A stretch of 59,532 nt of DNA from Verrucomicrobiota bacterium (GCA_026398235.1 JAPLTE010000031.1:1-59532); one strand, 5' to 3'; shown: positions 45,636 through 58,678, counted from the stretch's first letter. Numbers and translations are program-made. The notes: generated by a model from the letters alone, not told the origin.

Positions 45636-45706
45636 GGAAAACCCTCAAAAAAACTTGAAAACCCCCTCATGCTATTCAACAAGTGTGCGGCACAAAGCCG
45701 ACAGGT

Positions 45707-46852
45707 ATGCTCGCACTCGCCAATTTCTCGCCGCCCGACCCCATTCCGTTGCCCGCGCCGGTATGGATTTTTAAAGTATTGCACTGCACCGTGCTCTCCC
45801 TGCATTTCGTGACCGTCCAATGGATGCTCGGATGGCTGCTGATCGGCCTCGTCTGGAATTTCTTTGGTCGTGCGCGGCAAAACGCCCCGATGATCGCCGG
45901 GTCCGGCCGGATCGCCGGCACTTTGCCGATCCTCATGACCTATTTGATCAACTTCGGCATTCCGCCGTTGCTGTTCGCCCAAGTTTTATACGGCAATTTT
46001 CTCTACACCAGCAGTGTGCTGATCGGCGCTTGGTGGATGAGCGTCATTGCGTTGGTCATTTTGACCTATTCCGCGCTCTACGCCGGAAGCATGCGCGCGG
46101 AAAAAACCCGGGGATGGTGGGGCTTCGGCTTGGTGGCGCTCCTCCTGGCGGTTTCCATTGCCAAAATTTACAGCACAAACATGACCCTGATGCTACGCCC
46201 GGAGGCGTGGGTGGAAATGTTCCGGGCCAATGCGCATGGGACGGGGTTGCCCCCGGCTGATCCCACGACGACCCCGCGCTGGCTCTTTATGCTGGCGGGC
46301 GGCCTGACCGTGGGGGGGCTCGCATTGATCACGACCGGAGCGCGTAAAAAAGCGAGCGCCGAGAACGGTTTCCTCGTTTTCCATGGGGGATGGATCGCCG
46401 CAGTCGGAGCGCTCCTCCAGGCGGCAGTTGCGTGGCGGGTTTTCCATGCGCAGCCGCAAGTGATCCAGGCGAAGCTGAGTGCCAGCGCCTTTTATGGGCC
46501 GCTCCCGATCGTGTGGCTCGCGCTGGCGGCGGTTGTGGTTGGGCTGGGATTGCTCGCAACGGTGCTCCGCGAAAAAGCCACGGGCTGGCTTGCCACGGGC
46601 GCGGCGCTCCTGGGTGTGCTGCTTACGGCCACGATGACGATCTACCGCGACGGCATCCGCGATCTCACGCTTTTGGCAAACGGCTTTAATGTGTGGGACG
46701 CGAAAGTGGTCGCCAACTGGCCGGTCGTCCTTCTGTTTTTGGCCATTTTTGTGGCCGGCCTGCTCGGAATGGGCTGGCTGATTGCTGTGGTTCTGAAATC
46801 CAAACCCCAAGTTGCGGAGTCTCAAATTCAAATAGAGGAGCCTGTCCAATGA
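45707..46852 (+). CDS. Polytopic membrane protein, first gene of the bc/bd-like respiratory operon
   Basis: 381 aa with about nine membrane spans. The first spans read WIFKVLHCTVLSLHFVTVQW and MLGWLLIGLVWNFF, with two His (in LHCTVLSLH) that could be heme or metal ligands. It resembles no family I can name firmly; the pattern of His in the first span and its place before a Rieske gene and a CydA-like gene suggests a subunit that belongs to the same membrane complex, perhaps also a bd-like module. The ATG at 45707 is preferred to a GTG at 45683. It overlaps the Rieske gene by four bases. Confidence 0.7.
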   Translation: MLALANFSPPDPIPLPAPVWIFKVLHCTVLSLHFVTVQWMLGWLLIGLVWNFFGRARQNAPMIAGSGRIAGTLPILMTYLINFGIPPLLFAQVLYGNFLYTSSVLIGAWWMSVIALVILTYSALYAGSMRAEKTRGWWGFGLVALLLAVSIAKIYSTNMTLMLRPEAWVEMFRANAHGTGLPPADPTTTPRWLFMLAGGLTVGGLALITTGARKKASAENGFLVFHGGWIAAVGALLQAAVAWRVFHAQPQVIQAKLSASAFYGPLPIVWLALAAVVVGLGLLATVLREKATGWLATGAALLGVLLTATMTIYRDGIRDLTLLANGFNVWDAKVVANWPVVLLFLAIFVAGLLGMGWLIAVVLKSKPQVAESQIQIEEPVQ

Positions 46853-47307
46853 GCGATGCGCCCGAAGAATCGATTACGCGCCGCGTTTTCGTAAGAACCG
46901 GCATAGCCGCCGCCGGAGCCTGTTATGCCGCGGCTATGGGATACCCCGTTTTCCAATACCTCGCCGCCGCCGCGCAAAAGGCGGAAGCGGAATCGGCGGT
47001 GAAGGAAGTCATTCTCAACGACGTGGAGAAACTCCCGGCTCCCTCGGCGTTGATGTTCAAATTTGGAGGCCACCCGGCGCTCTTGATTCACCACGCCGAC
47101 AAATCATGGACGGCGTTGAGCGCCGTCTGCACGCATCTCGGCTGCACCGTGGAGTATGATCCGCACCAAGAGCGGATTGCCTGTGCGTGCCACGGCGGGG
47201 TTTACAATCCGCACACCGGCGGGAACGTCTCCGGCCCGCCGCCCAAACCGCTGACGCTTTTTCACGTGGTCGTGGCAGATGGAAAGGCGGTGGTCTCCCG
47301 TGTTTAA
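46849..47307 (+). CDS. Rieske iron-sulfur protein
   Basis: 152 aa. N-terminal SITRRVFVRTGIAAAGACYA has a Tat-type RR and a hydrophobic anchor. The [2Fe-2S] ligands are Cys94 and His96 in CTHLGC and Cys112 and His115 in CACHGG; Cys99 and Cys114 form the usual disulfide. It carries electrons from quinol to cytochrome c in bc-type complexes. A GAGGAG Shine-Dalgarno precedes ATG 46849. Second gene of the operon, followed by cytochrome b. Confidence 0.95.
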   Translation: MSDAPEESITRRVFVRTGIAAAGACYAAAMGYPVFQYLAAAAQKAEAESAVKEVILNDVEKLPAPSALMFKFGGHPALLIHHADKSWTALSAVCTHLGCTVEYDPHQERIACACHGGVYNPHTGGNVSGPPPKPLTLFHVVVADGKAVVSRV

Positions 47308-48391
47308 TCCAGGCAACCTCCTCAAGGCGATCTGGCAATGGGTGGACGCCCGGCTCGATCTCTCTCCCATCGTGCAGCATGCCAGCGAAAAGCAAGTGCC
47401 CGAGCATCGGCATTCCTCCTGGTATTACTGGGGCGGCATCTGCCTCTTTCTCTTCGTGGTGCAAGTGCTCACCGGCGTTCTCTTGATGGTCTATTACCGG
47501 TCCGGCCCGGACGCGTATGATTCGGTGCGGGAGATCACCTACCAGATCCGTTTCGGCTGGCTGATCCGCTCGGTCCACGCCTGGTCGGCCAACCTCATGA
47601 TCTTCGCCGTGTTCGTGCACATGTTCTCGGTGTTCTTCATGAAAGCCTACCGCCAGCCCCGTGAATTCGGATGGTGGAGCGGCCTCGGGCTGCTCGGGCT
47701 TTGCATGGTGTTCGGCTTCAGCGGCTATCTCTTGCCCATGGACGAATTGGCGTTCTTCGCAACGCGCGTCGGCCTTGCGATTCCCGAGACGTTGCCTGGA
47801 ATGAGCGGCATCATTTCGGCGGTGTTGCGGGGCGGCCCCGAGGTGGCGAGCGCCACGCTGCAACGCTTCTTTGCGCTGCATGTGGTGGTCCTGCCCGCGC
47901 TGTTCGCCCCCTTGCTGGGGATCCATCTTTGGCTGGTCCAAAAACACGGCAACGCCCTGCCGCCCAGCGAAGAAGCCAAACCGGAGGCGGAACGCAAATC
48001 GGTTCCCTTCTTCCCGAACTTCGCCATGCGCGACATGGCTGTGTGGCTGGTCGTCTTGAACGTGATCGCCGTTCTCGCGGCCTTGTTCCCCTGGCAACTC
48101 GATGCGGCCGCCGATCCGCTCAAACCCGCGCCTCCCGGCATTCATCCCGAGTGGTATTTCATGAGCCAGTTCGAGGCCTTGAAGCTCCTGGGGCGTGTGA
48201 TTCCAGGGACGCTGGGAGAATTCGCCGGGGTCGGGCTGTTTACAGTCGCTCTGCTGATGTGGGCTGCGGTGCCGCTCTTTGACACCCGCACCGCGCCGGG
48301 CCAGCGCAGTCGCAACACGACCCTTTTCGGCCTGCTCGTTCTCATCGCCGTGATCGCCCTGACGGTCATCGGCTACATCGAAGTTTTGTAA
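47300..48391 (+). CDS. Cytochrome b, b6/IV fused type
   Basis: 363 aa from GTG 47300 (overlap of 8 bases with the Rieske gene); an ATG at 47279 would add 7 residues. Heme ligands are His93/His107 and His194/His209. Spacings of 14 and 15 residues are those of cytochrome b6 rather than mitochondrial-type b. The Qo motif PEWYF is present in HPEWYFMSQFEALKLLG, which in b6f systems lies in subunit IV, so the protein is a b6 plus IV fusion. It should take quinol in the membrane and pass electrons to the Rieske protein and a c-type heme. No c1 gene follows. Confidence 0.93.
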   Translation: MFNPGNLLKAIWQWVDARLDLSPIVQHASEKQVPEHRHSSWYYWGGICLFLFVVQVLTGVLLMVYYRSGPDAYDSVREITYQIRFGWLIRSVHAWSANLMIFAVFVHMFSVFFMKAYRQPREFGWWSGLGLLGLCMVFGFSGYLLPMDELAFFATRVGLAIPETLPGMSGIISAVLRGGPEVASATLQRFFALHVVVLPALFAPLLGIHLWLVQKHGNALPPSEEAKPEAERKSVPFFPNFAMRDMAVWLVVLNVIAVLAALFPWQLDAAADPLKPAPPGIHPEWYFMSQFEALKLLGRVIPGTLGEFAGVGLFTVALLMWAAVPLFDTRTAPGQRSRNTTLFGLLVLIAVIALTVIGYIEVL

Positions 48392-48407
48392 CCCTACCCT
48401 ATCGCTC

Positions 48408-49832
48408 ATGAACTACCCGGTTTGGGATGTCACTTTCCTTGGCAGCGGATTGATGATCGCTCTGATTGCCATTTTCCACGTTTTCATTTCGCACTTCGCG
48501 GTCGGCGGCGGCTTTTACCTCCCGATGACGGAAGCGCTGGCGTTGCGCAAGGGGCGCAAAGACTGGATGGAGCAGCTTAAAAAACACTCCAAATTCTTCC
48601 TGATCCTCACCGGCGTTTTCGGAGCGGTCACGGGCGTTGGCATCTGGTTTGTCATCGGGCTGGCCAATCCCGAAGCCACCAGCACGCTCATCCATTTCTG
48701 GGTCTTCGCGTGGGGCATTGAATGGGTGGTCTTCCTGGTGGAGCTCTCGTCCATCGCCGCTTATTACTATCTGTGGGGCCGCGTTTCCGATGCGCTCCAT
48801 ATCAAAATTGGCTGGGTTTATGCGATCACCGCCTGGCTTTCCCTTTTTGCCATCAACGGCATTTTGACCTTCATGCTCACGCCGGGCCAGCCCTGGCTGG
48901 CGGTGGCGGGCAGCGGGAATGAAACCTTCGCTTTTTGGTCGGCCTTCTTCAACCCGACCTTCTGGCCGAGTCTCTTTGTGCGCACCTTGATCTGTCTTTC
49001 CATGGCAGGCGTGTTTGCGCTGGTAAGCGCCAGCCGCATCGACGGCGAGAAGCATCCGGAACTCAAAACGGAAACGATTCTTTGGGCGCGCAAATGGCTA
49101 CTCCCCTCCTTCCTCCTTCTGCCGGTCGGGCTGTTCTGGTACCTCTCGCAGGTGCCGGAAGGGCACCGGGCCTTGCTCAGCCTGGGGGCGGCCACCGTGG
49201 GGCAGGGGCTCTTTACGATCTTGACCCGGTTGACGATCGTCCTCGCCCTGGCTTCCTTTGGAACCGTCGCGAGCGTTTACCTGCTTACCAGCCAACGCAA
49301 CGCCGTCGGATTCCGGCTCGGAGCCGCGTTGGGGATTGCGTCGCTGGCATACATGACCATCGGGGCAACCGAAATGCTGCGCGAGATGCTGCGCAAACCG
49401 TATGTGATCGGTCAGCACATGTACTCCAATGGCGTGCGCAAGAGCGAAGTCGCGGGGTTCAACCAAAACGGCTATCTCACCAAAACACTCTGGGTGCGCC
49501 CGGAGGAACGGGCCCGGTGGGCGGCGGAGGATCAAGCCGCAGCCAGTGGCGCACCGCGGATCGCCAACCCGGCCCGGGGCGAACTGATGTTCCGGGGTCA
49601 ATGCATGTCGTGCCATACTTGGGACGGCTACCGGGGAATGCGGACCTTCCTCAAGGGCCGGGATCGCCAGGGAATATCCAATATTGTAAATGTCCTGCAC
49701 GCCTATCGCGCGGACTCGCCGTATCGTCCTTTCATGCCGCCCCTCGTCGGCACGCAACCCGAGGTCGAATCGCTCATCGATTATCTGACCTCACAGGTTT
49801 CGGCTCCCAAGCCGCAACCATCCAAACCGTAA
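48408..49832 (+). CDS. CydA-like membrane protein with C-terminal c-type heme domain
   Basis: 474 aa. Residues 1-340 have nine or so membrane spans in the pattern of cytochrome bd oxidase subunit I: IFHVFISHFAVGGGFYLP with His near 24, and GVFGAVTGVGIWFVIGLA, WGIEWVVFLVELSSIAAYYY like the CydA FGATTG and later helix motifs. The quinol-binding Q-loop (GWxxxExGRQPW) is absent. A soluble C-terminus has CMSCHTWDGYRG with Cys399, Cys402 and His403, a CxxCH heme c site, and FMPPLVGTQPEVE with a possible Met ligand. Cytochrome c1 is missing from the operon, so this domain may take that role. It is not a normal bd oxidase. Confidence 0.85.
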   Translation: MNYPVWDVTFLGSGLMIALIAIFHVFISHFAVGGGFYLPMTEALALRKGRKDWMEQLKKHSKFFLILTGVFGAVTGVGIWFVIGLANPEATSTLIHFWVFAWGIEWVVFLVELSSIAAYYYLWGRVSDALHIKIGWVYAITAWLSLFAINGILTFMLTPGQPWLAVAGSGNETFAFWSAFFNPTFWPSLFVRTLICLSMAGVFALVSASRIDGEKHPELKTETILWARKWLLPSFLLLPVGLFWYLSQVPEGHRALLSLGAATVGQGLFTILTRLTIVLALASFGTVASVYLLTSQRNAVGFRLGAALGIASLAYMTIGATEMLREMLRKPYVIGQHMYSNGVRKSEVAGFNQNGYLTKTLWVRPEERARWAAEDQAAASGAPRIANPARGELMFRGQCMSCHTWDGYRGMRTFLKGRDRQGISNIVNVLHAYRADSPYRPFMPPLVGTQPEVESLIDYLTSQVSAPKPQPSKP

Positions 49833-49845
49833 CCGGAGAAATCTT

Positions 49846-50325
49846 ATGAAACTGCCCCGTTTTTTTGAAACGGTGGATTCGTTCGGCCCGTTGCTGATGC
49901 GCCTGGGCCTCGCCGTGGTGCTTTTCCCGCATGGCGCGCAAAAAGTGCTCGGCTGGTGGGGCGGCCACGGCTTCAGCGGCACCATGGGTTATTTCACAGG
50001 CGCAATGCACATTCCGGCGGTTTTGGCGTTCCTCGCGATTGCCACCGAGTTCGCCGCCCCGATCGCCCTCTTTTTCGGGTTCTTCACCCGGCTCGCGGCG
50101 TTGGCGGTCAGCATTCATTTTGTCGTGGCAGCCATCCTGGGCGGCCACATCTACAATGGGTTGTTCATGAACTGGATGGGGAATCAGAAAGGGGAAGGGT
50201 TTGAATACCACATTCTGATGGTCGCGCTCGCGCTGGGGCTCCTCTTCCTGGGCGGCGGCAAATGGGCGCTCGATCGCGTGATTGCCCGGATGCTTTACGG
50301 CAGCCCGCGCCGCGCTGGAATGTAG
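49846..50325 (+). CDS. DoxX-family membrane protein
   Basis: 159 aa with four membrane spans. Pattern: PLLMRLGLAVVLFPHGAQKV, GTMGYFTGAMHIPAVLAFLA, IATEFAAPIALFFGFFTRLA, IHFVVAAILGGHIYNG. DoxX proteins are quinone- or redox-associated membrane proteins of mostly unknown role. It starts 13 bases after the CydA-like gene, so it belongs to the operon. A 10-bp hairpin (50341-50366) follows. Confidence 0.92.
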   Translation: MKLPRFFETVDSFGPLLMRLGLAVVLFPHGAQKVLGWWGGHGFSGTMGYFTGAMHIPAVLAFLAIATEFAAPIALFFGFFTRLAALAVSIHFVVAAILGGHIYNGLFMNWMGNQKGEGFEYHILMVALALGLLFLGGGKWALDRVIARMLYGSPRRAGM

Positions 50326-50340: not shown

Positions 50341-50366
50341 GTCCTCCCGACTCCGCTCGGGAGGAC
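50341..50366. terminator. Hairpin between convergent doxX-like and PP2C genes
   Basis: GTCCTCCCGA, six-base loop, TCGGGAGGAC: a perfect 10-bp stem. It belongs to the GTCCTCCCGA repeat group and may stop transcription from both sides, but no strong T-run follows. Confidence 0.55.
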
Positions 50367-50402: not shown

Positions 50403-51182
50403 TTACCCCACCAGCACGGCGGCGGTGGTGACATTGTCCTGCTTGGGATTGTCCCGTTCGGTGATGGCGGTGAACAGCCCCCGGATCAATTGCGGAGCCG
50501 TCATTCCTTGGCTCTCGGCCAGGTGAGCGGCAAGCTCGGACTCGTCCAGGACTTGCAGCCCGTCGCTTGCGAAGAGCAGGATGTCCCGGGGTTGCAGGCT
50601 GAACGGGTGGGCGGGCGAGTCAATGATCGGGATCTCCTCTCCCAGCAATGCCGAACGGATGACATTGCGCTGCGGGTGGATCGAGAGCGCCTCCGGAGGC
50701 AATTTGCCCTTGGCAATTTCGCTCGCGATGAAGGGCCGCATGGAATGATCCGCGTTGAGCCGATGCAAGACTCCCTCCCGGAAAAGGAACAGCGGCGAAT
50801 CCCCCACGCTGATCCACTGAAGATCGGTGCGGGAGACGGTTGCGGCGAGCAAGGTTGTCCCCATGCCGCTCAATTCCCCCCGGGAATTGTCGATGGCTTG
50901 CGCGATGCGCTCGTTGGCGTAAAGCAGGCTTTCCTGCAATGCAAACGCGTCGTTGGAATCCAACGTCGGTTTGTGCTGGAAGAACTCCTCCACAAAGGCT
51001 TCCACCGCAGTCTGGCTGGCACGTTGCCCGGCCAAATGGCCGCCGAGCCCATCGGCGATCACCACCAGCAGCTTTTCGACATCCTCGCCGGAGTCGGAAA
51101 TAATCGAGAAGGCATAGGAATCCTCCTGCATTTTCCGGCTGCCCAAAAGTTGCCTTCCTGCGAAATCACGACCGACTTTCAT
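50403..51182 (-). CDS. PP2C-type Ser/Thr protein phosphatase
   Basis: 259 aa. PP2C (PPM) motifs are complete: LGSRKMQEDSYAF (Arg/Asp), VIADGLGGHLAGQRAS, SGMGTTLLAATVS, WISVGDSPLFLFRE, ILLFASDGLQVLDE and the last metal Asp in PKQDNVTTAAVLV. It should reverse the kinase encoded three genes upstream. Last gene of the signalling operon, 51 bases after the FHA gene. Confidence 0.95.
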   Translation of the reverse strand: MKVGRDFAGRQLLGSRKMQEDSYAFSIISDSGEDVEKLLVVIADGLGGHLAGQRASQTAVEAFVEEFFQHKPTLDSNDAFALQESLLYANERIAQAIDNSRGELSGMGTTLLAATVSRTDLQWISVGDSPLFLFREGVLHRLNADHSMRPFIASEIAKGKLPPEALSIHPQRNVIRSALLGEEIPIIDSPAHPFSLQPRDILLFASDGLQVLDESELAAHLAESQGMTAPQLIRGLFTAITERDNPKQDNVTTAAVLVG

Positions 51183-51233
51183 GCTCGGTGGCTTTTTTGG
51201 GGTTGGCTGGCGGGAAACTGCTGGGACATTTTT

Positions 51234-51833
51234 TTAACCCTGCTGTTGCGACCAGTCGAAATCAGGGCCGCAGAGTGGGATAAATTTGAGACTGGTTTTC
51301 CCCAGCGAAATGAGTTCGCCGCCCGTGAGAAGGGCCGGTTGCAGGACAGGCGTTTCGCCGAGGTAGGTCAAGTTTTGGCCGCCGCCATGCATGAGGTAAA
51401 ATTTTCGTCCGCGCGGATCGTAGGTGATCGTGGCATGCACTTTGCGGGAAATTTCGGTGTCCCCAAAATCCAGGCGGCAGCGCTGCCCTTCCGCCCGCCC
51501 GATGCTGTTCATTCCGTGCCCGAGCCGGGCGAAGTTTCCCTGGCCCGGACCGGCAATGACCACCAGCCAGCCGACCAGCGGATCGGCCATCGGGTCGTTG
51601 GCGGGAATTTCCCCGGCCTCACGGTTACGGGAAGAAGGGCGCAGGATCACGGTCTTATCCTCCTCGGCTTGCATCAGGTTCTCCTGGGGCTCCTCCGAAT
51701 CCGTGGTGCGGCGGGATAAAATCCGGGTCTTTTCGAGGTCGTCCTCGGGTTGAGGCGTCGATTCCGGGTGGGGCGGTGTCGGCGGCTGAGCCATCGAACG
51801 GCGGATGAGGCGTGTTTTTTCGTGGTCTTCCAT
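51234..51833 (-). CDS. FHA-domain protein with repeated KTR-type N-terminal motifs
   Basis: 199 aa. A low-complexity N-terminus contains three similar short motifs, HEKTRLIRRS (res 4-13), LEKTRILSRR (33-42) and EDKTVILRPS (58-67), each with a Thr. An FHA domain covers 88-185 with SIGRAEGQRC and TEISRKVHATI, the Arg and Ser/His that bind phospho-Thr. The Asn-Gly of the last loop is changed to QNLTYLG. The three motifs could be phosphorylation sites for the kinase and docking sites for other FHA proteins, by inference. It is cytoplasmic (no signal). Confidence 0.85.
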   Translation of the reverse strand: MEDHEKTRLIRRSMAQPPTPPHPESTPQPEDDLEKTRILSRRTTDSEEPQENLMQAEEDKTVILRPSSRNREAGEIPANDPMADPLVGWLVVIAGPGQGNFARLGHGMNSIGRAEGQRCRLDFGDTEISRKVHATITYDPRGRKFYLMHGGGQNLTYLGETPVLQPALLTGGELISLGKTSLKFIPLCGPDFDWSQQQG

Positions 51834-51853
51834 GTTGGGTCGGGATGAAGAGG

Positions 51854-53404
51854 TTAGGCGCGGTAAAAACGAAAGCGCACTTCGCCCAGCTCGATTAAAT
51901 CCCCCTCCTTGAGGTTCGATTGGGTGACGCGCTGGTCATTGACGCTCAAGCCATTGCCGGAGCCGAGGTCGGTGATGTAAAAGGTGCCGTCCCGCTGGGC
52001 ATGGATTTCGGCGTGATATCCGGAAATACTGGTATTGGTAAAAACAATGTCATTGTCCGGGCGGCGTCCGATCCGGTTGGCGGTTTTCAGCAGCGGAATG
52101 CGCTTGGATTCCGCGTCCTGCATTTCCAGAAAAGCGGCTGGTGCGGGATCGGGATTGGTTTTGGGCTTCCGGCCCCGGAGGACCACCACAGCGGCGATCA
52201 AGACGAGAACGGTGCCGGTGCTGAAAAGGCGGGCCGGAGTCAGCCAGGAACTTGCGGCGGGCGGAACAGGGGTGGCGAGCGGCTTGGCAGCAGGGGCCAC
52301 GGGTTGGAAGGGGGCCGGGGTGGGGGTTGGGCTCGGGCTCGGAGTGGCGCTGGGAAGTGGCGTCGCAGTGGGCGCGGGATTAGCCGTCGGGGAGGGAAGG
52401 GCAACCGCAGGCGCGGGGGCGGGCGTCGCCGAGGGGGTGGGCTCTTCGATCAAGACGGGGCGCTTGTGAACGTAGCGGAAGGTCTCGCCGCCCTGGGTCA
52501 CGATCTCAAAAGTGACCTCTTTGCCGGGAGGGAGGGATGCGAGCGGCACCACGATTTCCCCACCGGAATTGACCGACTCGAGCACCGCTTGGGCAAAGTC
52601 GCTGCTCTCCTTGAGCCGTGCGCCGCGTTCCGGGGAACCCATCCGCGCGCGGAGATAGAGGCCCCGGGTCTCGCTGGAAATCTTCTCCAGGTTGCCCAGC
52701 GCGGGGACGTCTGCCCCGGTTTCCGGGCAGCCCATCGAAAAGACCATCACGTTGTGTTTGATCGCGGTTTTGACCAGATCGTCCACCGTGAAGCCGTTGT
52801 CCTCGTCTTTCCCGTCGGAGAGAATGAGCAGCGCTTTGCGCGTGGCGGGGAGGGGGGCAAGTTTTTCAATGGCGAGCATCCCCTGACGGTAAATGCGTGT
52901 GCCGAGGCCGTCCGCCTTGAGGTGGGCGATTTTATAGCGAATCTCAGCGAACGGAGCCCCGATGGCAGCCACCTCGACCAGATCGTTGGCAAAGGAGCAA
53001 ACGCCGATGAGATTGCCCGGCTGGGCTTGGGAGAGCAACGCCTGGATAAACTGTTTGTTGTCTTCGATCGTATGATCCCGTGGTGCCCGGGAAGAGCCGA
53101 CGCTGGTATCCACCAACACCAAAATGGCGCTGCTGTTGAGCGGGTTGTTGGCGAAGGGGGTGTGGCGAAATTCCAGCGGTTTTCCTGCCTGCGTCACGGC
53201 GACTTTTTGCAACGCGGCGGCGGGAAAAAGCCGATATTGGAATTTGAGTTGGGCCGTGGGGGTGGTTTCTTCGCTCGAACGGGAGAAGGCCGGATCAAGC
53301 TCCGCCCGGGCGACGGGAAGAAAAGCGGCCAAAAGGAGGAGGGCAGCGAGCCGGGAGGAAAAATTGCGAGCGCGCGAGAACGGCTTATTCCGAAGGGGCA
53401 ACAT
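51854..53404 (-). CDS. Membrane protein with vWA and FHA domains
   Basis: 516 aa. A signal peptide (LAALLLLAAFLPVARA) is followed by a von Willebrand A domain: AILVLVDTSVGSS (MIDAS, the usual DxSxS with Gly at the last place), FIQALLSQAQPGNLIGVC, ALLILSDGKDEDNGFT. Then a 60-residue Pro/Ala/Thr linker, a membrane span FSTGTVLVLIAAVVVLRG near 410 and a cytoplasmic FHA domain with RIGRRPDNDIVFTNTSISGY and DLGSGNGLSVND. It appears to link periplasmic binding to phospho-Thr-dependent contacts inside. Ends 20 bases before the FHA gene. Confidence 0.88.
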   Translation of the reverse strand: MLPLRNKPFSRARNFSSRLAALLLLAAFLPVARAELDPAFSRSSEETTPTAQLKFQYRLFPAAALQKVAVTQAGKPLEFRHTPFANNPLNSSAILVLVDTSVGSSRAPRDHTIEDNKQFIQALLSQAQPGNLIGVCSFANDLVEVAAIGAPFAEIRYKIAHLKADGLGTRIYRQGMLAIEKLAPLPATRKALLILSDGKDEDNGFTVDDLVKTAIKHNVMVFSMGCPETGADVPALGNLEKISSETRGLYLRARMGSPERGARLKESSDFAQAVLESVNSGGEIVVPLASLPPGKEVTFEIVTQGGETFRYVHKRPVLIEEPTPSATPAPAPAVALPSPTANPAPTATPLPSATPSPSPTPTPAPFQPVAPAAKPLATPVPPAASSWLTPARLFSTGTVLVLIAAVVVLRGRKPKTNPDPAPAAFLEMQDAESKRIPLLKTANRIGRRPDNDIVFTNTSISGYHAEIHAQRDGTFYITDLGSGNGLSVNDQRVTQSNLKEGDLIELGEVRFRFYRA

Positions 53405-53471
53405 TGGTTTTACTCTCTATCCCAAAAGGGTTGAAACACAACGACAAAAAGTGATCGGCAAGGGTGTAGCA

Positions 53472-55376
53472 TCATCGGGGGCCGGCTTTTTTTTCCACCG
53501 TCACACAGCGGAATCCGATATTGTCGTATTGATCGGTGGGAAAAGAGTAGTAGCGGAAGGAGGAGAGCAGAATGTCTTGGGTGCAACTGTTCCAGGCACC
53601 GCCGCGCAAGACCCGCCGCCGCTGGAAGGTGTCATACCAATCCTCGCACCATTGCCAGACATTGCCGCTGAGATCAAAGAGGCCGTAGCGATTCGCCGGG
53701 AAAACCCCCACCGGGGAAGTCTTTTCGTAATCATCGGCCGAGAGAGCGCGGTTGTAGTTTCCCGCTCCTTTGGGAGGGGGCCAGAAGTCTCCCCAGGGGT
53801 AGTTTCGCTTCATGTTTCCGTCCTTATCCTTGGGCGTGGAGCCGTTCTCCGGCGGCAACCCGGCCGCAAGGCTCCATTCCGCATCCGTTGGCAGACGGTA
53901 TTCCCTGTTTTCCTTGGTGGAAAGCCAGCGGCAAAAGGCGTTGGCATCTTCCCAGCTCACATTCACCGCAGGGTGGTTCACCTCCTGCGCGAACGACGGT
54001 TTGGTCCATCCCCTGCCGGTCGCCTGGACAAAAGCCCTGTAGTCCTGAACCCGCGTATCCCATATGCTAAAGAGCAGTCCCGTTCCCGGCACCGGCACGA
54101 ATTTCATTCCCAGGCTGTTTTCAAAAACCACAGGGTTGCGCGCGGGGGCCGGCTTCTCGGGAGCTCTGGGTGCGGGCGCGGAAATCGGTTCTGCGGTTTG
54201 CAGGGGGGCCGGTTCGTTGGGGCGGGTGAGCAACGCCAGTGTGCCCCCCACGACGGTGAGCAAGCCGCTGGCCGCCAAAAACAGCAGCACCGGCACGATG
54301 AACGGAAATTTACGGACGGTTTTCAAGATCCGCAGTTCCGGCATGGTGACAGTCGGAGCGCGGGAGGTGTTGGGCGGGGCGGTGCCGGGGCGCGCTGTGG
54401 AGGGTGCGCCGGAAGTGGCTGGGCTGGGCTGCGCTCCCGGTTGAGCTCCCAAAGCCGCTTTTGCGCGCGAGACCGGCACGGGTCTGCGCACGGGGAAGCT
54501 CACCCGGGGGGTCCATCCAAAACTCGCCTGCCATTCGCTGATATTCTGGGGCCGATCCTTGGGTTTGACCCGCAGCGCCCAGTCAATGGCCTGCATGAAC
54601 AATGGCCGGAACCCTTCCAGGCCGCGGTAACTCAGCCACACAAAATCATCTTCGCTCATCCGGTCTGCGGACATGGGCGGCTTATCGCCGGTGATCGCCC
54701 GCGCGGCCACAGCCCCCAGCGCATAAATATCCGTCCACGGCCCCTGTTTGCCTTTCACCTGGTATTGCTCGATGGGCGAATACCCATGGGTCACCAGCGA
54801 GGTCATCGGGGTCGTTCCCTCCAGGAGTTTGCGGGCCGAGCCGAAATCGAGCAGGATCGGCTGAATGCCCCGGCGCAGGAGGATGTTGTCCGGTTTGATG
54901 TCCCGGTGCAGCAAGCCGGCCGCATGGACTTCCTCGAGCCCGGCCAGCAACGGCTCCAAAATCAGGCGCATGCTATGTTCGTCCGCCTCGCGCCCGATCC
55001 GGCGCAGGCGCGCCTCGTAACTTTCGCCTTCGATGTAATCCATCACCATGTACACCGTCCCGTTCGCTTCGATGAGCTGATGGACTTCGACAATATTGGG
55101 ATGTTTAAAGCTGGCCAGCACGCGGGCTTCCTCCATGAACCGCTCCTTGGCCCATTCCCAGTTGGACGCCAGTTCTTCGCTCTGCGGGGCGACGTGGCCT
55201 TCCTTGATGCGCGTGACAATCGTATCCGGCAGCAACTCTTTGACCGCCACTCTTCGCCCGAGATGCCTGTCCTCGCCCAGGTAGGTGATGCCAAACCCCC
55301 CCTTGCCGAGGACTCGCGTCAGTTCGTAATTCGCCAGCCTAAAGCCGCTAGGCAATGCGAGTCGGTGGGTTTCCAT
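53472..55376 (-). CDS. Ser/Thr protein kinase with periplasmic FGE-sulfatase-like domain
   Basis: 634 aa. Kinase residues 15-300: GKGGFGITYLGED loop, Lys46 in VAVKEL, HRDIKPDNILL (Asp159), DFGSARK (Asp177), SPIEQY after the activation segment TTPMTSLVTHGY. A Pro/Ala linker and a span PFIVPVLLFLAASGLL near 375-400 follow, then an FGE/SUMF1-like domain from 440: NSLGMKFVPVPGTGLLFS, DANAFCRWLS, YRLPTDAEW, NVWQWCEDWY, RVLRGGAWN and GFRCV. The kinase would be cytoplasmic, the FGE part outside; such domains often bind ligands rather than act on sulfatases. Start ATG 55374-55376, 52 bases after the VanZ-FHA gene. Confidence 0.93.
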   Translation of the reverse strand: METHRLALPSGFRLANYELTRVLGKGGFGITYLGEDRHLGRRVAVKELLPDTIVTRIKEGHVAPQSEELASNWEWAKERFMEEARVLASFKHPNIVEVHQLIEANGTVYMVMDYIEGESYEARLRRIGREADEHSMRLILEPLLAGLEEVHAAGLLHRDIKPDNILLRRGIQPILLDFGSARKLLEGTTPMTSLVTHGYSPIEQYQVKGKQGPWTDIYALGAVAARAITGDKPPMSADRMSEDDFVWLSYRGLEGFRPLFMQAIDWALRVKPKDRPQNISEWQASFGWTPRVSFPVRRPVPVSRAKAALGAQPGAQPSPATSGAPSTARPGTAPPNTSRAPTVTMPELRILKTVRKFPFIVPVLLFLAASGLLTVVGGTLALLTRPNEPAPLQTAEPISAPAPRAPEKPAPARNPVVFENSLGMKFVPVPGTGLLFSIWDTRVQDYRAFVQATGRGWTKPSFAQEVNHPAVNVSWEDANAFCRWLSTKENREYRLPTDAEWSLAAGLPPENGSTPKDKDGNMKRNYPWGDFWPPPKGAGNYNRALSADDYEKTSPVGVFPANRYGLFDLSGNVWQWCEDWYDTFQRRRVLRGGAWNSCTQDILLSSFRYYSFPTDQYDNIGFRCVTVEKKAGPR

Positions 55377-55428
55377 GGGGGTGAGAAAGGGCAGGGATGG
55401 CTGGAAAAAAGGAGTTTTACAGCTTTGA

Positions 55429-56292
55429 TCATGCCAGACGCCGGAAATGTAGCAGGACTTCGCCCGCTTCGATCCGGTCGCCATCGGCAATCTGCACCGG
55501 CCGGAACGGCGCGAGCTTGCGACCGTTGACCCGTGTGCCGTTGGAGGAGTCCAAGTCTTCGACCTCAAACTGCCCGTTGCGGAAGAGGAGCGAAAAATGC
55601 TGGCCCGAAATACTGGTGTTTTTGATACACAAATGGGCGGATTTGCTGTTGCGCCCCAGAATAAGCCGCCCGCCGTGTTCCCGTTGGAGCCGGTCCTGCA
55701 CTGAAAAGCGGACCTCGGAGCGGTTTTCCATATCCTGGCCTTGCAGGGTGCACAGGAGTTGATCTGCGAAACTGGGGCGCTTGCCGACCGGGGCCGCTTC
55801 GCTGTGCTCCGGCTTTAGCGGTTTGGGTGCGCTCGAATTTGCCCGGAAGCGGAGGACGAGAGAGCATACCCACAGCCCGAAGGCGGCCCCCATCGAGTCG
55901 AGCACCACGTCGAGGATTTTGCCGTCGCGTCCGGGCACAAAGAGCTGGTGGAGTTCGTCGCTGGCTGCATAGGCAGTCGCCAGCACCCAGGCCGAAGAGA
56001 TCCATTTGCGGGCATCACCCCGCTCATACGAGAGGGCTCGCAGGAAGAGCAGCGCAAGGAGGGCGAACTCCGAGACGTGGGCCGCCTTGCGCGCCAACAG
56101 TTTCACCATTTCCAGTTGGGCGAAGGTGATGTTGGGGAAGAAGAAGCGCAGGAGCGGCTCGAGAATGCGTGAAGAATGCACCACGGAGCCGGAATCGGCC
56201 GAGGCCGAAAAGATCACGAACATCCAGAAAACAACAGGCCCCCAGCGCTTCAGTGCCACCAGCCAAACGGTGTAATTCAGTTTCGGAATCAT
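55429..56292 (-). CDS. VanZ-like membrane protein fused to FHA domain
   Basis: 287 aa. Residues 15-150 are VanZ-like: four spans with WMFVIFSASADSGSV, KAAHVSEFALLALLFLRALS and AYAASDELHQLFVPGRDGK, and LDVVLDSMGAAFGLW, including the conserved His/Glu of that fold. The C-terminal FHA domain (about 195-285) has LILGRNSKSAHLCIKNTSIS then GQHFSL and DLDSSNGTRVNGRKL, with all phosphate-binding residues. VanZ-like proteins have no clear enzyme role; the fusion links the membrane to phospho-Thr signalling. First gene of the minus-strand signalling operon. Confidence 0.88.
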   Translation of the reverse strand: MIPKLNYTVWLVALKRWGPVVFWMFVIFSASADSGSVVHSSRILEPLLRFFFPNITFAQLEMVKLLARKAAHVSEFALLALLFLRALSYERGDARKWISSAWVLATAYAASDELHQLFVPGRDGKILDVVLDSMGAAFGLWVCSLVLRFRANSSAPKPLKPEHSEAAPVGKRPSFADQLLCTLQGQDMENRSEVRFSVQDRLQREHGGRLILGRNSKSAHLCIKNTSISGQHFSLLFRNGQFEVEDLDSSNGTRVNGRKLAPFRPVQIADGDRIEAGEVLLHFRRLA

Positions 56293-56314: not shown

Positions 56315-56346
56315 AAAAAACCCCGCCTATCGCTAGACGGGGTTTT
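56315..56346 (-). terminator. Terminator of the coiled-coil DNA-binding-like gene
   Basis: AAAACCCCGTCTAGCGATAG then GCGGGGTTTTTT on the minus strand: stem CCCCG/CGGGG with U-rich tail, 19 bases past the stop at 56365. The plus strand also ends in AAAA/TTTT, so it may work both ways. Confidence 0.88.
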
Positions 56347-56364: not shown

Positions 56365-56766
56365 TTAGGGCAGGAAAAACCGGGTGCCTGGTCCCGCCCC
56401 CTGGCGCTTGAGAGCGGTCGGGTTGTTCGCGATGAACTTGCGGATTCGCAGCGGATCCTGTCCCACGCGGGCAGCGATCTCCTTGGCGTTGAGGCCGTTC
56501 ATCCCGTGTTGGGCCATGGCTTTGAGAACCATCGGCTTCAACTCTTCGTCAGAGATGGATTGGCGGCGGGTGCGGCGGGCAGACGGCGCAGCCCCGGATT
56601 CTTCCGCCGGTTTGCCGGTTAATTGGGCCAGTTCTTTTTCCAGATCGGCCACGGTCTTGCGGGCTTCAGCGAGTTGCTCATGCAATTCGATCAATGCTTG
56701 TTTCTTTAAACCTTGGATTTGGCGTTCCAGTTGTTCGATCTGTTCGGAAGCAGTGGGTGTGGACAT
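56365..56766 (-). CDS. Small coiled-coil protein with winged-helix-like C-terminus (H-NS-like)
   Basis: 133 aa. The N-terminal half is a coiled coil (SEQIEQLERQIQGLKKQALI and EARKTVADLEKELAQ) as in oligomerising H-NS-type proteins. A basic linker RRTRRQS follows. The C-terminal third (ELKPMVLKAMAQHGMNGLNA, KEIAARVGQDPLRIRKFI, RQGAGPGTRFFLP) looks like a winged helix. This layout is found in xenogeneic-silencer-like or nucleoid proteins, but the AT-hook motif of true H-NS is absent. Likely a DNA-binding protein of unknown targets. It is expressed as a single gene with its own terminator. Confidence 0.6.
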   Translation of the reverse strand: MSTPTASEQIEQLERQIQGLKKQALIELHEQLAEARKTVADLEKELAQLTGKPAEESGAAPSARRTRRQSISDEELKPMVLKAMAQHGMNGLNAKEIAARVGQDPLRIRKFIANNPTALKRQGAGPGTRFFLP

Positions 56767-57289: not shown

Positions 57290-58678
57290 TCAACGCGCCC
57301 CCGAGCCAAAAAGGACCACCGGAATGGTTTTCAGGAGGATTTCGAGGTCGAGCCAGATGGACCAGTTGTCGATGTATTCGAGATCGAGTTTTACCCATTG
57401 CTCGAACACCTGGACGTTGTTGCGCCCTCGGATTTGCCAAAGGCAGGTCAGGCCTGGCTTTACGCTGAGCCGCCGCCGCTGGGCGTCGTTCTGGAAATTG
57501 GCCACCTCGTAAAGGGGGAGCGGGCGCGGCCCGACAAGGCTCATGTCTCCCAAAATCACATTCACAAGCTGCGGCAGCTCGTCGATGCTGGTTTTGCGCA
57601 TCCAGCGTCCGAAGGGCGTGATTCGGGGGTCTTCCCCCACTTTAAACACCGGGCCGCTCATTTCGTTGAGATTTTCCAGTTCCGCCCGGCGCATCTCGGC
57701 GTCCGTGGTCATGCTGCGGAATTTATACATCGTGAAGGGACGCCCGTTTTTGCCTCCCCGTTGCTGGGAAAAAACGACCGGGCCGGGAGAGGTCAGCTTG
57801 ATCCCAAGAAAGGCCAGGAGCATCAGGGGGCTGGTAAGCAAGAGGAGAAAAAACGCGCCCACCCGGTCGATGAGGTTTTTGACCAGCAACTCCCACGAAA
57901 GGGAGGGCGTGGTGCGGAAGACGAGCATGGGAAGCGAACCGAGCGCGTCAAAACTCGGCTTGGCAATCGCCGTTTTGATGAAATCGGCCACGAGCCAGGC
58001 CTCCACTCCTTCGACTTCACAGGCACCGATCGCTTTTTGGAGCAGGCTCATGTTCGCCTGGCCGCCGGTGAAGATCACGCGGTTGACGGAATGCTTGTGC
58101 AGGGCGGCAATGAGTGCCGAGGTCGGCTGCTGCTCGATGTTGATTTCGCCCACAATATCCATCTCGATCAACTGCACCGGCGTCAGCATCTGGCGCAGCG
58201 CTTTGATATCCACGGGGCTTCCCGCCAGCAGGACAGGCTCGCGGTTGGTGCCGTTGCGAGCGAGGTTGCGAAAAAAAACGGCGGTGGCACGTTCGCGCAG
58301 GGTGAGCAGCATGAGGGCGAGGAGCCCAAAGAGCGGCAATACCGCGCGACTGGGCACATGGAGCCGGAAGAAGATCACGCAGCCGCCCAGAAGCAAGGCG
58401 ATCCAGAAAGCCGCGCTGGCCATCTGGCGCAGGGAGGTGGCGAGCGTTTTTTGCAGCGGGTGCGTGTAAAATCCCTGGAGCTCCAATAAAATCGGGCCGA
58501 AAGGCATGATGATAAAAATCATCCACTGGTTTTCGGAAAACACGCCAATCGGCTCCAGGCCGAACCAAAACTGGCCGAGATGCCTCAAGACATAGGCAGC
58601 CCAAAAAGCGAAGGCCAGGAGAAGCGCATCCGTGATTTGGTACAGCTGGAGATTAAATTCTTGTTTGCGGCCCGTCAT
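57290..58678 (-). CDS. Polyprenyl-phosphate sugar phosphotransferase (WcaJ/EpsA-type)
   Basis: 462 aa. Four to five N-terminal spans with a CoA-binding-like domain between (residues 140-240), then the catalytic bacterial transferase domain: NLIDRVGAFFLLLLTSPLML, LTSPGPVVFSQQRGGKNGRP, FTMYKFRSMTTDAE, FGRWMRKTSIDELPQLVNVI and GDMSLVGPRPLPLYEV, RRLSVKPGLTCLWQIRGRNN. It moves a sugar-1-phosphate from UDP-sugar to undecaprenyl phosphate at the inner membrane, starting exopolysaccharide units. No polymerase or flippase is next to it. The N-terminus (from ATG 58678) covers the membrane part; its promoter region lies before divergent aroD. Confidence 0.95.
   Translation of the reverse strand: MTGRKQEFNLQLYQITDALLLAFAFWAAYVLRHLGQFWFGLEPIGVFSENQWMIFIIMPFGPILLELQGFYTHPLQKTLATSLRQMASAAFWIALLLGGCVIFFRLHVPSRAVLPLFGLLALMLLTLRERATAVFFRNLARNGTNREPVLLAGSPVDIKALRQMLTPVQLIEMDIVGEINIEQQPTSALIAALHKHSVNRVIFTGGQANMSLLQKAIGACEVEGVEAWLVADFIKTAIAKPSFDALGSLPMLVFRTTPSLSWELLVKNLIDRVGAFFLLLLTSPLMLLAFLGIKLTSPGPVVFSQQRGGKNGRPFTMYKFRSMTTDAEMRRAELENLNEMSGPVFKVGEDPRITPFGRWMRKTSIDELPQLVNVILGDMSLVGPRPLPLYEVANFQNDAQRRRLSVKPGLTCLWQIRGRNNVQVFEQWVKLDLEYIDNWSIWLDLEILLKTIPVVLFGSGAR

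Follow-up and report, generated by a model that had tools for sequence, protein, structure and literature searches.

Organization of the locus

The window—the whole stretch of DNA analyzed here, 59,532 nucleotides from a Verrucomicrobiota bacterium—carries on its minus strand, at positions 50403-56292, five open reading frames (ORFs) encoding, in this order, a VanZ-FHA protein, a kinase-FGE protein, a vWA-FHA protein, a small FHA protein (termed the adaptor) and a PP2C phosphatase (Table 1). All five genes had been named in the original prediction; the ORFs were recovered at the same positions, with Pfam assignments in agreement. The genes are separated by gaps of 52, 67, 20 and 51 bp, figures that depend on the ATG at 55376, the best choice for the kinase start, and they support the operon that had been proposed from spacings of 20-67 bases on one strand. 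The hairpins on either side of the set fit a transcription unit of exactly five genes, with terminator-like matches as a class being no more frequent in the window than in shuffled sequence. No promoter was identified for the five-gene unit.

Table 1. Features of the five-gene locus and its borders (positions count from the first nucleotide of the window).
Feature	Position	Strand	Basis or remark
Terminator-like hairpin	56317..56346	minus	13-bp stem and T-run, between upstream H-NS-like gene and gene 1
Gene 1, VanZ-FHA, 287 aa	55429..56292	minus	Pfam, motifs, hydropathy
VanZ lipocone of gene 1	56235-55855	minus	Pfam VanZ 5.1e-17
Cytoplasmic FHA of gene 1	55662-55465	minus	Pfam FHA 4.7e-17
Gene 2, Ser/Thr kinase - TM - FGE-like domain, 634 aa	53472..55376	minus	Pfam
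Kinase domain of gene 2	55328-54660	minus	Pkinase 1.2e-35
FGE domain of gene 2	54023-53502	minus	Pfam FGE-sulfatase 7.2e-37
Gene 3, signal peptide - vWA - Pro-rich linker - TM - FHA, 516 aa	51854..53404	minus	Pfam, hydropathy, predicted structure
vWA domain of gene 3	53122-52811	minus	Weak Pfam VWA_2 6e-4
FHA domain of gene 3	52075-51884	minus	Pfam FHA 6.6e-20
Gene 4, adaptor, 199 aa (tail, residues 1-84; FHA, residues 85-190)	51234..51833	minus	Pfam FHA 1e-7
Motif 1, EKTRLI (Thr7), candidate phospho-Thr site	51804..51821	minus	K6, T7 and R8 invariant in 8 orthologues
Motif 2, EKTRIL (Thr36), candidate phospho-Thr site	51717..51734	minus	T36 and R37 invariant in 8 orthologues
Motif 3, DKTVIL (Thr61), candidate phospho-Thr site	51642..51659	minus	K60 and T61 invariant in 8 orthologues
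Gene 5, PP2C phosphatase, 259 aa	50403..51182	minus	Pfam PP2C_2 2.8e-10
Hairpin 3' of gene 5	50341..50366		10-bp stem, between convergent genes

The genome that contains the window (2.58 Mb in 144 contigs, about 95% complete) has four kinase matches, i.e., gene 2 and three further kinases, together with six FHA-domain matches and a single PP2C_2 match, that of gene 5. Upstream of the operon, positions 56365-56766 hold a small H-NS-like gene, whose product combines a coiled coil with a C-terminal helical domain; the gene is syntenic and adjacent to the operon in congeners, and its closest copies are confined to the genus. It was left out as a sixth member of the unit because the terminator-like hairpin separates it from gene 1. 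A polyprenyl-phosphate sugar transferase gene (57293-58678; Bac_transf 4e-67, Pfam) lies just upstream in this genome and in two congeners, a circumstantial association that would fit a role in envelope-polymer metabolism. On the other side of the operon, a convergent respiratory gene set (45683-50325) encodes a membrane protein, a Rieske-like protein, cytochrome b, a cytochrome bd-like subunit I with a CxxCH-type tail and DoxX.

Domain architecture and conserved residues

The kinase catalytic residues of gene 2 (K46, E83, HRD at 157-159, N164 and DFG at 177-179) are invariant in 11 homologues, and its sequence carries the VAIK lysine, HRD and DFG that characterize Hanks-type kinases. A single hydrophobic stretch, near residues 350-385, separates the kinase from the FGE domain, for which the nearest solved relative is SUMF2 (a known inactive paralogue), followed by ToxD, which is kinase-associated, and by PvdO-type proteins. 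The Cys pair of active FGE, located after the RGGS/T motif, is absent from all aligned gene 2 homologues. With SUMF2 closest and the Cys pair missing, an active formylglycine-generating enzyme was rejected, and the domain looks like a non-enzymatic binding domain. Based on hydropathy, both this domain and the vWA of gene 3 should face the periplasm, and it is from this topology only that we infer envelope sensing by the module.

In the vWA-FHA protein, a transmembrane segment (residues 391-409, followed by RGRK) precedes the FHA domain. The weak Pfam match to vWA is backed by the predicted structure, whose vWA part resembles BatB and integrin I domains (the FHA part matches GarA), and by the MIDAS-type residues D99, S101, T169 and D197, invariant in 11 homologues; the FHA residues R447, S459, S461 and H464 are invariant in the homologues aligned. 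Full-length relatives were found in the genus and in two further genomes (G101 and G001), and partial ones in Chthoniobacter flavus (G136) and G039. In C. flavus Ellin428 (L080:5094-6787), the two halves of the protein, vWA and FHA, are encoded in separate but overlapping frames, representing a gene fission, a frameshift or a sequencing error.

In the VanZ-FHA protein, both VanZ-2 motifs, RKxxH (RKAAH at residue 68) and DxxxD (DVVLD at residue 128), are present and are conserved in the three congeners aligned, and the phosphothreonine-binding residues GR, SGxH and NGT of its FHA domain are present in the three species aligned. The PP2C protein has its metal-site motifs (QED19, DGLGG44, SDG206 and DNVT249) and an Stp1-like match of 7e-37, under the cut-off for the Stp1 family. 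The assignment of a writer (kinase), an eraser (PP2C) and FHA readers made in the original prediction is supported, and signature residues are intact in all three classes. The prediction had also counted two membrane FHA proteins with outside domains, listing FGE among the latter; outside domains are indeed supported, but FGE belongs to the kinase, which leaves VanZ-FHA and vWA-FHA as the two FHA proteins of the membrane.

The adaptor combines a well-folded FHA domain with a tail of 84 residues for which disorder is predicted (pLDDT 50-63, no secondary structure). Only M1, K6-T7-R8, T36-R37, K60-T61 and P66 are invariant in the tails of 8 orthologues, the remainder being divergent, and T61 is invariant in 25 relatives from several phyla. 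All three motifs of the window adaptor (KTRLI, KTRIL and KTVIL) have hydrophobic residues at +2 and +3. The pattern T-x-[ILVM]-[ILVMFY] occurs 54 times in the 25 tails, which share ancestry and are not 25 independent cases, against 3.9 on average, and no more than 12 in any one, of 2000 shuffles. Moreover, two homologues from roseobacter plasmids, with unrelated long acidic tails, keep KTRLL just before the FHA domain. Across the window genome, a DNA pattern for [DE]KTR-hydrophobic (excluding AGR arginine codons) gave seven matches, two of them in the adaptor tail; none of the other five fell in an evident gene, the frames being short or antisense-looking. Threonine sites with such hydrophobic residues are bound by FHA domains of the pT-x-x-I/L type, and the three adaptor motifs fit ligands of this kind (pThr-x-x-Ile/Leu). 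They could instead bind another partner in unphosphorylated form. The FHA domain itself retains G112, R113, S129, R130, H133 and N154 in all 25 relatives, with GarA and OdhI as nearest solved relatives. The adaptor looks like these proteins but fails their models, scoring 31.8 bits against FhaB (cut-off 125) and not being listed for the OdhI model NF041660.

Conservation in the genus and relatives in other phyla

The same five genes occur in the same order in two congeners (L051 and G083/L054). In a third, G142, the set extends over two contigs with the break inside vWA-FHA, and in G032 it is split, with VanZ-FHA and kinase-FGE on one contig and vWA-FHA, the adaptor and PP2C on another. Linkage is thus conserved outside this strain, contrary to the outcome that had been named as refuting the original prediction. 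The five-gene order, whose conservation throughout the phylum that prediction had put forward as a check, nevertheless does not extend beyond the genus: VanZ-FHA fusions were found in four of 147 genomes of the order, all from the window genus (other matches cover VanZ alone). The adaptor was detected in 3/388 genomes of the phylum at E<=1e-25, a stringent threshold at which remote members escape detection. Since the kinase gene of G032 lies apart from the adaptor gene and this genome holds a second kinase-FGE paralogue, the pairing of kinase and adaptor is not exclusive. That paralogue (L113:5202-7046) sits beside a response-regulator gene, away from FHA genes.

To gain a broader view of the adaptor, its alignment was scanned against 84,980 species genomes, which returned 35 loci in Verrucomicrobiota, Gammaproteobacteria (relatives of Beggiatoa, Thiomargarita and Thiothrix, and others), Alphaproteobacteria, Latescibacterota, Gemmatimonadota and Binatota—most of them from metagenome-assembled genomes (MAGs), so that single phylum labels may be binning errors. 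In most of these loci PP2C is the next annotated gene after the adaptor, usually accompanied by kinase and membrane FHA genes. The adaptor and the PP2C beside it form the core of a cluster that is rare, patchy and multi-phylum. In 21 of the 35 loci, a MotA/TolQ/ExbB-family protein (PF01618; E-values of 6e-10, 5e-9 and 4e-11 in three tested proteins) with a GF[IM]GTV signature stands before the adaptor, usually with another small FHA protein ahead of it. Further members of many clusters are a one-TM protein that has an invariant Asp (RELNIFSMSALDLF...) and matches ZorB weakly, HtrA-like protease-TM-FHA proteins, vWA-FHA proteins and kinases, some with FGE. On plasmids of Azospirillum, Leisingera and Ruegeria, the adaptor-PP2C pair occurs with a kinase and with OmpA/vWA-FHA/protease-FHA or dynamin-family genes. 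In view of the TolQ/ExbB-like, ZorB/MotB-like and protease-FHA proteins in the relatives' clusters, the term self-contained, previously applied to the module of the window, fits a reduced form at best. Both these multi-phylum relatives and the conserved tail motifs had escaped the original prediction.

The relatives with a PF01618 protein resemble the Zorya ZorAB, MotAB and ExbBD motors in that protein, in the motif P-[TS]-[LM]-G-F-[IM]-G-T-V and in the one-TM partner with its invariant Asp; they differ in that the pair lies under FHA and kinase genes. In the window genome the motor pair is absent, and no TolQ-like relative was found there or in G032. A TolQ-like match in G083 (E 1.5e-11, L116) was set aside, since it belongs to another gene set, one that includes ExbD-like genes of its own. 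An unrooted tree of adaptor and PP2C places L055, a locus with a TolQ-like gene, as sister to the window genus; support is 94-100 on the surrounding branches and weak (37-61) on deeper ones. The simplest reading, which falls short of proof, is that the channel pair was lost in the window genus; VanZ-FHA would then replace another membrane FHA output.

Several observations on the relatives stand apart from these comparisons. Adaptors outside Verrucomicrobiota (L057, L058 and L066-L079) mostly begin with MP[IV][FY]RG.[DN]G.[IV], in contrast to the Verrucomicrobiota adaptors. In L066, L067, L071, L074 and L075, adaptor and PP2C are nearly identical between MAGs labelled Latescibacterota and Gemmatimonadota, as a result of either recent transfer or a binning error.

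A candidate threonine-phosphorylation relay and competing explanations

We propose, with a probability of about 0.6, that the five genes encode a membrane-anchored threonine-phosphorylation relay and that this module derives from a kinase/adaptor/PP2C core present in several phyla. The kinase would sit in the membrane, exposing the non-enzymatic FGE-type binding domain on the outside and keeping its catalytic domain inside; binding of an envelope cue to FGE, and perhaps also to the vWA of vWA-FHA, would lead to kinase dimerization and activation. The active kinase would then phosphorylate Thr7, Thr36 and Thr61 in the disordered adaptor tail, creating pThr-x-x-Ile/Leu sites that vWA-FHA and VanZ-FHA would bind through their FHA domains—as might the FHA domain of the adaptor itself, in a GarA-like self-binding. 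The phosphorylated adaptor could thereby assemble or switch the membrane FHA proteins, and PP2C would strip the phosphates to reset the system. Outside Actinobacteria, few bacterial Ser/Thr kinases have known targets; here, the sequence alone names a kinase, a phosphatase, an adaptor, three exact threonines and three candidate readers, which makes the circuit testable with purified domains.

The likely output of the relay is VanZ-FHA, a VanZ-2 lipocone predicted to target lipid-carrier head groups of peptidoglycan or exopolysaccharide. VanZ-2 lipocones have been proposed to act on such head groups in peptidoglycan synthesis, and the same survey gives FHA fusions for VanZ-1 (PMC12419801). Those proteins share with ours a lipocone membrane domain and a cytoplasmic FHA, and differ in that the window protein has VanZ-2 motifs and sits in a kinase/PP2C operon. 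Because outputs vary between relatives, the case for a VanZ output comes from one genus.

TagR resembles an FGE-like fold, and the parts of the module recall the type VI pathway (TagQRST-PpkA-Fha-PppA) to which it belongs. There, a periplasmic regulator activates the membrane kinase PpkA, Fha is phosphorylated and PppA reverses the reaction (PMC10482370); in addition, Pseudomonas PpkA has a vWA domain fused to it (PMC1262709). The window circuit probably works like this pathway, with which it shares a membrane kinase with an outside domain, a periplasmic FGE-like regulator, vWA, an FHA target and a PP2C reset, yet it is not a member, as neither this genome nor its congeners have a VipB gene and the FHA proteins fall far below the TagH cut-off (31.9 bits for vWA-FHA against TIGR03354, cut-off 120.25; adaptor not matched). 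Furthermore, the kinase here carries FGE, and an FHA protein carries vWA, as fused domains, the adaptor joins a three-site disordered tail to a GarA-like FHA, and the output is VanZ. The common parts might still suggest an orphan remnant of a PpkA/TagR/Fha/PppA cassette left after the loss of secretion genes, but this origin appears highly improbable. VipB (PF05943) is absent from seven of eight genomes with the module, among them the window genome and its three congeners; the inspected genes of 36 annotated neighborhoods include no type VI genes; and the proteins are under constraint rather than decaying. The earlier remark that no secretion genes adjoin the set holds for the neighborhood and, with respect to VipB, for the 95%-complete genome.

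The layout of the adaptor, i.e., a small soluble protein with an N-terminal tail bearing Thr sites and an FHA domain, points to another explanation: a soluble GarA/OdhI-like switch, in which an enzyme, metabolic or structural, docks on the unphosphorylated FHA surface, self-binding of the phosphorylated tail closes this surface and the membrane FHA proteins independently read autophosphorylation sites of the kinase. Both GarA and OdhI indeed undergo phosphorylation of the tail, and in GarA the pThr is bound by the protein itself (PMC5448819, PMC2784874). We nevertheless regard such a switch as unlikely, since the adaptor has three conserved T-x-x-I/L motifs of different sequence, not one site accessible at a time, and its linkage to membrane FHA partners and PP2C is stable across other phyla. 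For the actinobacterial GarA and OdhI, linkage to vWA-, VanZ- or protease-FHA genes is not known. A somewhat less probable alternative is a defence or conflict module, in which kinase, adaptor and PP2C restrain a membrane effector (VanZ-FHA here; TolQ/ZorB-like proteins or dynamin elsewhere) until envelope attack by phage or contact releases it. The patchy distribution and plasmid carriage would suit such a role, as would partners with defence relatives (MotA/ZorA-like and ZorB-like PADLOC matches, dynamin and zeta-toxin genes), the use of VanZ-1 as a toxin tip elsewhere (PMC12419801) and the anti-phage kinase-phosphatase precedent of the KKP prophage module (PMC11341870). KKP likewise unites a Ser/Thr kinase, FHA and PP2C, but it comprises two cytosolic kinases (CSD and FHA fused), with no adaptor and no membrane FHA proteins. 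Against the defence reading, no PADLOC system model matches the adaptor, PP2C, vWA-FHA or VanZ-FHA, and the ZorA and ZorB matches are weak (1.6e-6 and 2e-4). The window locus is syntenic in the genus beside housekeeping genes and not in an island, and no phage or viral contig carrying the module was found. A known defence system was rejected for lack of specific matches to PADLOC models, those of the kinase being generic kinase-domain matches.

TerY-P triads bring kinase, PP2C and vWA genes together. GAP1-N2 triads do the same (PMC7159879), but in both systems vWA is a standalone protein, whereas the window vWA is extracytoplasmic and FHA-fused, and neither GTPase nor Ter genes accompany it. 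The literature searched, with most subscription papers outside its reach, holds no description of the composite cluster, which is weak evidence for novelty.

Beyond the relay itself, we tentatively suggest, at somewhat less than even odds, that the window shows one branch of a regulatory cassette found in several phyla, with a portable core made up of the kinase, PP2C and a multi-site pThr adaptor bearing KTR-hydrophobic motifs—one phospho-switch serving interchangeable envelope effectors through FHA domains, these effectors being a TolQ/ZorB-like motor with protease-FHA, dynamins or a VanZ lipocone. If the core is truly portable, the KTR-hydrophobic motif would be a marker for phospho-controlled membrane machines, including TolQ/ZorB-like motors, across phyla. 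Eight clusters (L066, L067, L070, L074, L075 and L079 from Latescibacterota and Gemmatimonadota, together with L061 and L073) share the order FHA1 - TolQ/ExbB-like - FHA adaptor - PP2C and add a ZorB/MotB-like one-TM protein and one or two HtrA-protease-TM-FHA proteins; as putative phospho-controlled, ion-driven envelope machines, they would be worth a study of their own. Finally, three roseobacter plasmids (L128:7866-15758, L129:3007-14979 and L130:1-11122) carry kinase - FHA adaptor - PP2C with paired dynamin-family genes, in clusters that also contain a zeta-toxin gene or substrate-binding-domain genes.
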